A stretch of 64,000 nucleotides of DNA, taken from positions 310,001-374,000 of the forward strand of contig NZ_JARBUT010000002.1 in assembly GCF_028882275.1 (NCBI RefSeq). Reading direction: 5' to 3'. This stretch comes from Nocardiopsis sp. N85 (lineage in GTDB: Bacteria; Actinomycetota; Actinomycetes; Streptosporangiales; Streptosporangiaceae). Numbering within the stretch: position 1 is the first letter of the stretch; the number at the start of each line of letters is the position of its first letter. Positions 2-49,288 of this stretch are shown here, piece after piece. The notes beneath the pieces were generated by a model. The model had not been told where the DNA came from. It was given only the letters and a program-made list of their open reading frames with translations, and made no database searches. A program made the position numbers and the translations under genes.

Positions 2-856
2 CGGATCGCCCGGGTGGTGCGCTGGGGACAGATCGGCTCCCGGTTCGGCGGGGTGCTCGGCGGCGTGACGGTGATGCTCGGCGGCACCTGGCTGTCGGGG
101 GACGCGCTGATCCTGGTCGCCGGAGCGATGCTGGTCGCGCTGGGTCTCGCGGTCCCCCTGTCGTTCCCCATGAGCCCGGGGCGCCGCGGGGTGTCGGTGG
201 GCGCCCTGGTCCGGGAGTCCGTGACGACGCTGGCGGGGCGGCGGTTCGCGCCGCTGGTCGTCCTGGTCGTCGGGCTGACCGTCGTCAAGGCGGTACTGGT
301 CATGAGCTGGCAGCCCCTGGTGACGGCGCGGTACGGCGACGACGTCCGGATCAACGGGATGGTCCTGCTCGTGATGACCTTCGCGCTGGCCCTCGGAGCG
401 GCCTGCTCCCGGTTCCTCGGGCATCGGAATCCCCACCTGTGGGGTTCGGCGTGTGTGATCGCCACCGGGGTGCCGCTGTTCCTGGTGGCCTGGGACCTCC
501 TGCCGCCGGTGGTCGCTCTGATCCTCGCCGAGTTCCTGCTCGGCGTGTCGCAGGCGCTGTTCGTGGTGTGGGAGCACCTGATGTACAGCGACGCCGCGCG
601 CAACGCCCTGTTCTCGACGATGTCCTTCGTCGCGTTGGCCGTGCTCTCCATGACCCACGTGCTGTTCGGTTGGGCCTGGGACGGATACGGTCTCGAAACG
701 GCGATGACGGTCGTTCTCGTCGTGTCCGTCGTCGCCGCCGCCGCGACGGCGCCCCTGGCCTTCGCCTTCCCCGAGTCCCGCCGTTTCTTCGACCCCGGGG
801 GAAGGGCGGAGAGGGGTGCCCCGGGTGACTCCGAGGAGAGCGACGTGAGGGAGTGA
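2..856 (+). CDS. MFS transporter, C-terminal part
   Basis: The reading frame is already open at the window edge, so the 5' end is missing. About 284 residues are visible with seven or eight hydrophobic helices and short polar loops, ending in a charged cytoplasmic tail. Composition and the 6+6 helix-like spacing fit a major facilitator exporter of about 400 residues, so roughly 120 N-terminal residues lie outside. The GTG at 14 is only the first start codon in frame and is unlikely to be the real start. Substrate cannot be told. The stop lies about 95 bp before the next gene on the same strand. Confidence 0.7.
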   Translation, partial: RIARVVRWGQIGSRFGGVLGGVTVMLGGTWLSGDALILVAGAMLVALGLAVPLSFPMSPGRRGVSVGALVRESVTTLAGRRFAPLVVLVVGLTVVKAVLVMSWQPLVTARYGDDVRINGMVLLVMTFALALGAACSRFLGHRNPHLWGSACVIATGVPLFLVAWDLLPPVVALILAEFLLGVSQALFVVWEHLMYSDAARNALFSTMSFVALAVLSMTHVLFGWAWDGYGLETAMTVVLVVSVVAAAATAPLAFAFPESRRFFDPGGRAERGAPGDSEESDVRE

Positions 857-48494: not shown

Positions 48495-49046
48495 ATGCAC
48501 GCTGATGTTCACGCCGATCTGGCGAAACTGTCCTTCCTGATCGGCCGCTGGGAAGGTGTCGGCGTCGCCGGATACGCCGACGAGGAGGAGTTCCAGTTCG
48601 GCCAGGAGCTCGTGTTCGAGCACCGGCCCGGACTCCCCTATCTGAACTACCGGGGCGCGGCCTGGCGGATGAGGCCGGACGGGACCCTGGGCGACCTGGT
48701 CACCGAGGAGTCGGGGTACTGGCGGGCGCTGTCGGAGGAGGACACCGCCGACCGCGAGGAGGGCGCCCCGATCGTCCACCTCGAAGTGCTCATCACCCAC
48801 AACGAGGGCTTCATCGAGTCGTACGCGGGCACGGTGTTCGCGAACCGGGTCGAGATGGCCACCGACGCGGTGCTGCACACCTCCACCGGCCTCGACGTGA
48901 AGGCCTCGCACCGGCTCTACGGCCTGTTCGGCGACAACCGGGAGACCCTGGGGTACGCCTGGGACCTGGCGGCGCGCGGGCACTCGCTGCGCTCCTACAT
49001 GTCGGCGCAGCTCAAGCAGGTGGGCAAGGGCGCCGAGGAGCGGTAG
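48495..49046 (+). CDS. FABP-like (nitrobindin) heme-binding protein
   Basis: A 183-aa beta-barrel protein of the actinobacterial FABP/DUF1794 group. LSFLIGRWEGVGVAGY contains the GxWxGxG signature. FQFGQELVFEHRPG and GYWRALS follow, and the C-terminal half has SHRLYGLFGDNRETLGYAWDLAA with the His expected to bind heme iron. Nitrobindins bind ferric heme and isomerise peroxynitrite. TACGCT lies 8 nt before the ATG. Confidence 0.88.
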   Translation: MHADVHADLAKLSFLIGRWEGVGVAGYADEEEFQFGQELVFEHRPGLPYLNYRGAAWRMRPDGTLGDLVTEESGYWRALSEEDTADREEGAPIVHLEVLITHNEGFIESYAGTVFANRVEMATDAVLHTSTGLDVKASHRLYGLFGDNRETLGYAWDLAARGHSLRSYMSAQLKQVGKGAEER

Positions 49047-49108
49047 GGCCCGGAGAAGAGAAACGGACCCCGGGCCGCTTCCCGCCGGTGTGGGCGGGGC
49101 CGGTCGGA
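49047..49108. other. Gap between FABP gene and the mini-ORF tail
   Basis: Holds hairpins CCCGCC-N6-GGCGGG at 49081-49098 and GGCCCGG-N16-CCGGGCC at 49047-49076. Either could end the convergent transcripts here. Confidence 0.45.
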
Positions 49109-49186
49109 CTACTTCCGGCGGCCCGGGATCCAGGTGTCCGTTAGGGATTCGCCGCGAACGAACGTCGCGCGAAACGCGAGCTCGTC

Positions 49187-49225
49187 CTAGCGGACGGCCA
49201 CCTCGCCAGTCCTGAGAGAAATCAT
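49187..49225 (-). CDS. 12-codon mini-ORF with exceptional ribosome binding site
   Basis: Reads MISLRTGEVAVR then TAG. In front is AAAGGAGGTGGTCC (49231-49244), complementary to nearly all of the 16S rRNA tail, 11 nt from the ATG, and a fitting promoter. After the TAG the same frame stays open for 25 codons (DELAFRATFVRGES and on) to a second TAG at 49109-49111. The sequence around the first TAG forms a 9-bp stem (49137-49145 with 49186-49194) that pairs better in plus-strand RNA (one G-U) than in minus-strand RNA (one mismatch). It could be a leader or regulatory peptide, or a readthrough or decayed small gene. No minus-strand gene follows closely. Confidence 0.5.
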   Translation of the reverse strand: MISLRTGEVAVR

Positions 49226-49258
49226 CTTCGGGACCACCTCCTTTCCTGCGTGACACCG

Positions 49259-49288
49259 AAGGTACGTCCTGCCGGACCCTCGGGGCAA
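49259..49288 (-). promoter_or_regulatory. Promoter of the mini-ORF
   Basis: On the minus strand TTGCCC (49283-49288), 18 nt, then TACCTT (49259-49264). It would start transcription about 27 nt before the mini-ORF. ygfZ has its own TAGGCT at 49353-49358 on the other strand. Confidence 0.5.

Follow-up and report, generated by a model that had tools for sequence, protein, structure and literature searches.

SgrS is a dual-function small RNA (sRNA), and in leader ORFs and attenuators (uORF sensors) a short open reading frame (ORF) lies within a structure that the ribosome would melt, with a terminator-like hairpin behind it. SR1 (PMC8501984) and VcdRP (PMC8672173) are described as dual-function sRNAs as well, and sRNA-encoded peptides are surveyed in PMC5521070. 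In Staphylococcus aureus, an extended Shine-Dalgarno (SD) sequence combined with an AUU or AUA start is reported to be strongly regulated at initiation (PMC13009471). For the Rfam family Ms_IGR-5 (RF02471, 'Actinobacteria sRNA'), the relative in S. lividans is described as an RNA-seq-validated transcript (PMC8079986), the relative in S. avermitilis as one of the 2 among 139 sRNA units that have an Rfam match (PMC8780764), and in M. smegmatis an sRNA is reported to overlap the earlier-named IGR-5 (PMC10454040). Homologs of MS_IGR-5 in M. abscessus and M. smegmatis carry ribosomal reads, which are weak evidence because most characterized E. coli non-coding RNAs likewise show them (PMC4974804). 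In the papers surveyed on the family, on anti-SD sRNAs and on short ORFs, we found no published ORF or function for Ms_IGR-5.

We analysed a window of 64,000 nt from Nocardiopsis sp. N85, in which positions are counted from the first letter. A cmscan of the whole window placed Ms_IGR-5 on the minus strand at 49251-49058, with 80.5 bits (E 3.5e-16) against a gathering score of 45 and a match over model positions 1-184 of 184; it is the sole RNA family in the window besides a tRNA, and the genome has 1 RF02471 match. A first-pass annotation, made from the letters alone, had described an orphan mini-gene here, and the SD, 12 codons, TAG and promoter of that description are the 5′ half of the Ms_IGR-5 RNA; the mini-gene is thus no orphan and belongs to a known sRNA family. 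The feature looks like an independent small RNA gene that carries its own promoter, and its parts are as follows.

49283 to 49288, minus strand: −35 element TTGCCC (from the sequence; pattern kept in relatives)
49259 to 49264, minus strand: −10 element TACCTT, spacer of 18 nt (from the sequence; pattern kept in relatives)
49058 to 49251, minus strand: Ms_IGR-5 small RNA (cmscan, RF02471)
49248 to 49250, minus strand: 5′ strand of helix P0, at the RNA 5′ end, CGC (covariation)
49231 to 49246, minus strand: SD1, extended SD GGAAAGGAGGTGGTCC (complement of the 16S 3′ end, counting two G-U pairs)
49187 to 49225, minus strand: 12-codon ORF MISLRTGEVAVR with its TAG stop at 49189-49187 (open in-frame ORF in 198/199 relatives)
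49209 to 49212, minus strand: strand of the proposed pseudoknot PK within the ORF, GGAC in codons 5-6 (covariation, few changes)
49204 to 49206, minus strand: 3′ strand of helix P0, from the end of codon 7 into the first base of codon 8 (covariation)
49199 to 49204, minus strand: SD2, SD-like GAGGTG inside the ORF, its first base 15 nt ahead of the stop codon (spacing kept in relatives)
49194 to 49202, minus strand: strand of helix P2 within the ORF, in codons 8-11 (covariation; one internal G-A mismatch in the window)
49133 to 49141, minus strand: pre-terminator strand of helix P2, ACGGACACC (covariation)
49065 to 49131, minus strand: terminator-like domain with outer stem GGATCCCGGGCCGC / GCGGCCCGGGGTCC (fold; covarying stem pairs)
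49106 to 49109, minus strand: terminator-loop strand of PK, GUCC (covariation, few changes)
49064 to 49052, minus strand: T-rich stretch past the terminator-like domain (from the sequence)

At E <= 0.001, the RF02471 model matched 200/200 sampled genomes of the window's order, 192/296 genomes of its class and 70/396 genomes of the phylum. Model R1, which covers the 5′ 68 positions of the RNA, was trained on 87 sequences and contains no frame information, matched 171/396 phylum genomes at the same threshold, a count that is not independent because many of the training sequences come from the same phylum sample; its weakest matches, from about E 1e-4 upwards, are doubtful. By this comparison, for which part of the R1 training set came from the genomes searched, the RF02471 model overlooks family members. 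The first-pass annotation had named the joint absence of conservation and of any transcript as the outcome that would speak against it, and the opposite was found: the RNA is conserved, and its relatives are transcribed.

The promoter that had been noticed upstream is there by eye (TTGCCC-18-TACCTT, 49288-49259), and the pattern TTGNNN-16..19-TANNNT occurs at the same place in 94/143 relatives vs. 0/143 reversed controls, with the −10 element of these 94 ending 13-17 nt upstream of GGAGG. Generic scans of the locus reported no sigma-70 promoter and no terminator. Nothing on the same strand follows nearby, as had been stated: the next downstream ORF (48495-49046, plus strand; Pfam THAP4_heme-bd, the 'FABP' of the earlier description) is convergent with the RNA. 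A relative of this ORF lies downstream and convergent at 43 of 97 loci, for which short flanks were available. Among 10 other downstream ORFs, 8 had Pfam hits, which were PNPOx in convergent orientation (3) and, co-directionally, MFS (2), metallo-beta-lactamase (1), hydrolase (1) and arginine deiminase (1). Since neighbouring genes vary among genomes, the RNA appears to stand alone, and since no constant same-strand gene follows, we rejected a leader of a downstream gene and consider a cis-attenuator for one neighbour unlikely. The stop codon of the THAP4_heme-bd ORF lies 11 nt from the modelled 3′ end of the RNA, so the two transcripts may overlap.

To compare reading frames, we used relatives anchored on GGAGG and GAGGT, which are non-independent samples. 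The first count comprised 144 distinct sequences and skipped four loci with GAGGT in another frame (L103, L108, L109 and L112); these four were brought into the pooled set of 199 distinct RNAs, from which two duplicates had been removed. Two loci with a GGGGG core (L102 and L114) escaped the motif search and are uncounted, and both have the ORF by eye. Of further R1 matches, 60 hand-chosen stretches were fetched and 53 analysed; four were left out because the motifs searched for were absent from them (L202, L224, L236 and L237, with CAGGTG by eye in L224), and three were left out by eye (L206, L207 and L235). Start codons of the 144 were assigned by priority, by which at least L066 and L142 received ATC where ATT and TTG look better, and the search for stops covered a slot of 7 positions, a width at which chance places a stop in 102/1595 control slots.

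In the window, the frame reads MISLRTGEVAVR, TAG, 25 further codons and a second TAG, as the first-pass annotation had it. An open ORF with a near-cognate start, located 6-13 nt past the SD core, is found in the frame of the fixed stop in 198/199 relatives; the two alternative frames have one in 0/199 and 10/199. The sole miss in the stop frame (L078) has ACG at the start place. With NTG starts alone, the corresponding counts are 173/199 in frame vs. 0 and 1. The added R1 matches have such an ORF in the stop frame in 53/53 cases vs. 7 in another frame (53/60 if the dropped stretches are counted as misses). Between start and GAG, the 144 relatives contain no stop among 928 in-frame codons, vs. 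8/784 and 117/784 in the shifted frames. Assigned starts in these 144 were ATG (76), TTG (41), GTG (10), CTG (7), ATC (6), ATT (2), ATA (1) and ACG (1), and the stops were TAG (127), TGA (12) and TAA (5). The ORF has 12 codons in 107/144 and 13-15 codons in the others, and the distant set adds lengths of 10, 11, 17 and 18 codons. In a diverged branch with a weak R1 score (L230-L233; E about 1e-4), ATA stands at the start position of an 18-codon frame (IDAPSSSRGYLLGEVALT / IDASSSSRGYLLGEVALT).

These sequence counts (198/199 vs. 0 and 10) indicate that the frame is conserved beyond chance and that the ORF is under selection as a reading frame; together with the SD and the start, the kept frame supports a ribosome-binding RNA, as suggested earlier, and a translated mini-ORF. 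Because the frame is kept from start to stop and the peptide barely is, the act of translation is probably what matters. The reading that we prefer, and to which we would give about an even chance, is that ribosomes gate a structured RNA whose function lies in translation and not in the peptide; both this gating and any target are inferred.

The SD is the strongest in the window, and nearly completely complementary to the anti-SD, as had been noticed: with up to 3 mismatches allowed, no stretch of the window other than GGAAAGGAGGTGGTCC matches the 16S-tail complement, where chance would give 0.31 such matches; GGAAAGGAGGTGGTCC itself deviates at 2 positions, each a G facing a U. Its core AAAGGAGGTGRTYC occurs twice in the 6.5-Mb assembly, once in the Ms_IGR-5 RNA and once on the strand facing the 16S 3′ end, which reads GGATCACCTCCTTTCT. 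Codons 2-4 have a GC content of 35% (22% at third positions) vs. 71% past the stop, as expected of an unstructured initiation region. Further into the ORF, GAGGT begins 14-15 nt before the stop in 198/199 relatives, whereas control positions have a stop in 32/3190 cases; the sixth base is G in 195 and A in 4. The presence of GAGGT itself in these counts is by construction, since the relatives were anchored on it. In the 12-codon form, a spacer of 6 nt separates the end of GAGGUG, which is complementary to the anti-SD, from the last sense codon. The constancy of GAGGTG, in part due to this anchoring, could also reflect pairing in cis with CACC and not with 16S. In seven relatives (L201, L209, L214, L216, L218, L222 and L225), the ORF tail is GAGGTGATG..TAG, with an in-frame ATG between SD2 and the stop, so that reinitiation there would be possible.

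Both sites would also fit an RNA that simply holds ribosomes, in which SD1 and SD2 bind 30S or 70S through the anti-SD, the ORF serves to load or park the ribosome, and the RNA acts on the ribosome pool. The 14-16 nt of complementarity to the 16S tail, which recur in the genome nowhere except opposite the 16S gene, the second anti-SD-complementary site at a fixed distance upstream of the stop, and the ribosomal reads reported for homologs (PMC4974804) are consistent with this explanation, which by itself, however, leaves the frame kept to the stop, P0 and P2 unexplained, and which would demand very strong expression from one gene. We regard it as unlikely.

The pairings of the ORF were examined in 143 aligned RNAs (effective number about 90). 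The top five covarying pairs were 56-116 and 54-118 of helix P2, which rank 1st and 3rd, and 1-45, 2-44 and 3-43 of helix P0; pairs of the terminator stem rank 6-9 (131-184, 127-188 and 134-181 covary). In a second alignment, built separately from 87 sequences that mostly also belong to the set of 143, 96.2% of 343 P0 cells are paired, vs. 10-62% in slid versions, and 75 cells changed on both sides, vs. a shuffled mean of 15.4, a number that 0/500 shuffles reach. For P2, 1350/1571 cells over 11 pairs are paired (86%), vs. a shuffled mean of 78% and 26-51% when slid; the window has GGUG-G-CCGU with ACGG-A-CACC, including one G-A mismatch. A P2-like helix was found at p <= 0.05 in 12/52 distant RNAs and is not clear in most of them. 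For PK, 718/857 cells are paired (84%), vs. a shuffled mean of 75% and 24-45% when slid; the pair 38-150 is standard in 142/143 RNAs (GC 137, CG 4, TA 1) and ranks 18th, a level at which non-pairing column pairs also occur, and the four core pairs changed on both sides in 5, 0, 0 and 2 of 143 RNAs (5 for 38-150, 2 for 41-147). P0 and P2 thus covary strongly and PK modestly (143 and 87 RNAs). By covariation across the aligned sequences, the 5′ end of the RNA (P0) and its pre-terminator strand (P2) pair with the region of ORF codons 5-12, and a pairing of the terminator loop with the ORF (PK) is suggested with modest support from few changes. Helix P1, the energy-favoured fold in which GGUCC of the SD pairs with GGAC, was set aside as unproven: 0/715 cells changed on both sides, and its paired fraction of 0.881 equals the shuffled mean of 0.882.

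The GUCC and CACC strands are strongly kept among relatives, as would be the seed of an ordinary base-pairing sRNA that uses the terminator loop or the pre-terminator CACC and in which translation of the ORF sets only stability or turnover. The gene is autonomous, with a promoter and a terminator-like hairpin, as such an sRNA would be; but cis pairing can account for the kept strands, and we consider this explanation quite unlikely.

The amino acids encoded by codons 2-5, 7 and 10-12 vary among relatives, and codon 5 changes at its first base (W/R/G) with GG retained. Codon 6 encodes Thr in 127/144 relatives, using all four Thr codons, which can be explained by the fixed bases GGAC, although a constraint on the peptide would give the same. 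The residues E-V are encoded by a single codon each (GAG GTG) in 144/144 without synonymous change, as a nucleotide constraint would give; in this anchored set, only the last G was free to vary. In 14/199 relatives GAGGT stands in another frame relative to the stop, giving a different peptide, for example LHSTSGGGSS or VTDSCSTGSGGTSG, and the frame from start to stop is kept in 14/14. A functional micropeptide of about 12 residues, as in the usual dual-function RNA, could draw on the strong SD, the in-frame ORF in 198/199 relatives, the Thr of codon 6 with its four codons and the invariant E-V (in a set anchored on GAGGT), but the single codons of E and V, the varying first base of codon 5 next to its kept GG and the relatives that read GAGGT in another frame (LLKTSGGDCS among their peptides) make it improbable. 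The regulatory micropeptide first proposed for this locus is therefore weakened: its frame is kept, whereas most residues are not, and 14/199 relatives encode another peptide. Judged from these comparisons, the peptide is probably not the product.

A chance ORF, a plus-strand RNA or a readthrough element can be dismissed almost entirely, since the frame counts (0/928 in-frame stops, which with 198/199 vs. 0 and 10 refute a chance ORF), the match of the covariance model to the minus strand, the folds and the near-equal post-stop medians outweigh the one point in their favour, a slightly higher in-frame lower quartile past the stop. The medians of open codons past the stop are 50 in frame and 49 and 49 in the other frames, with lower quartiles of 26 vs. 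13 and 16, a slight in-frame excess; with TAG exchanged for TGA or TAA in relatives (127/12/5 of 144), readthrough, one of the first suggestions, is not supported. The stretch around the TAG, which had been thought to pair better as plus-strand RNA, folds at −20.8 kcal/mol on the minus strand vs. −16.3 kcal/mol on the plus strand, and the 205-nt RNA at −103.4 vs. −99.8 kcal/mol. With the fold weaker on the plus strand both locally and overall, and the covariance model on the minus strand, the proposed plus-strand structured RNA was rejected.

Under the preferred reading, in which ribosomes gate a structured RNA, ribosomes would initiate at SD1 and translate the ORF, and P0, PK and P2 would melt. 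The ribosome at the stop codon, held through SD2, would keep these pairings open, with GAGGUG 6 nt before the last sense codon of the 12-codon form matching normal SD spacing. The RNA would thus switch between a closed form (P0, P2 and perhaps PK) and a ribosome-held form, and the open form would either bare 3′ elements (the CACC strand and the GUCC loop) to targets or hold the ribosome. In this way the RNA might report or use translation initiation in trans, with the peptide as a by-product. More broadly, we think it possible, though somewhat short of an even chance, that these RNAs form a phylum-wide class of stand-alone RNAs in which an extended SD recruits the ribosome, 10-18 largely arbitrary codons are translated across a folded and possibly pseudoknotted RNA and a second SD holds the ribosome at the stop, so that ribosomes would be sensed or modulated with neither a peptide nor a downstream gene.

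An RNA filed as an sRNA, present in 200/200 sampled genomes of the order, thus appears to conserve a reading frame and hardly its peptide. Such conservation of a frame without a peptide is unusual as a mode of selection and suggests that the signal is the act of being translated; on the same grounds, some 'non-coding' RNAs that carry ribosomal reads may be genuinely translated. The structure model (P0, P2 and perhaps PK) has covariation behind it. The RNA family itself was already known, and what appears to be new here, on the evidence of sequence, is the conserved frame without a conserved peptide and the P0/P2/PK fold.

Compared with the Rfam description of RF02471, which files the family as an sRNA and in whose consensus part of SD1 is paired to the ORF, P0 and P2 fit the SD1/ORF area better. 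The Ms_IGR-5 RNA resembles leader ORFs and attenuators in having a short structured ORF ahead of a terminator-like hairpin, and differs from them in that its downstream neighbours vary and are convergent or co-directional. Its ORF codons pair in P0 and P2 (and modestly in PK) by covariation, and under the gated reading these structures would alternate. The extended-SD starts of S. aureus show the same combination of SD and start as several Ms_IGR-5 lineages, whereas the S. aureus sites open larger proteins (e.g., 61 residues) and not an sRNA mini-ORF, as far as they are described in PMC13009471. With the dual-function sRNAs SgrS, SR1 and VcdRP, the Ms_IGR-5 RNA shares an sRNA gene with a translated short ORF; those RNAs are described as encoding a defined small protein, whereas in Ms_IGR-5 the peptide is not kept, most of its residues varying and 14/199 relatives having GAGGT in another frame. 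Another likeness is to CC2171 (RF01867, caulobacter sRNA), which likewise starts with GAAAGGAGGUGAUCCAG, complementary to the 16S tail, although the window RNA scores 18.3 bits against the RF01867 model, below its gathering score of 75. At CC2171 loci (L250-L329, mostly from records titled Alphaproteobacteria), an ORF of 14-33 codons from GTG to a stop is present in 76/76 distinct sequences, 70 of them with 21-25 codons, although the search pattern itself dictated the GTG and codons 2-3, leaving only the remainder informative. With its ORF directly after the extended SD, CC2171 looks like a small protein or a leader peptide rather than a non-coding RNA, and its peptide seems partly conserved (MSHC...TW..AS...), unlike that of Ms_IGR-5. 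The CC2171 RNA of Alphaproteobacteria may be an independent instance of an RNA whose activity is translation.
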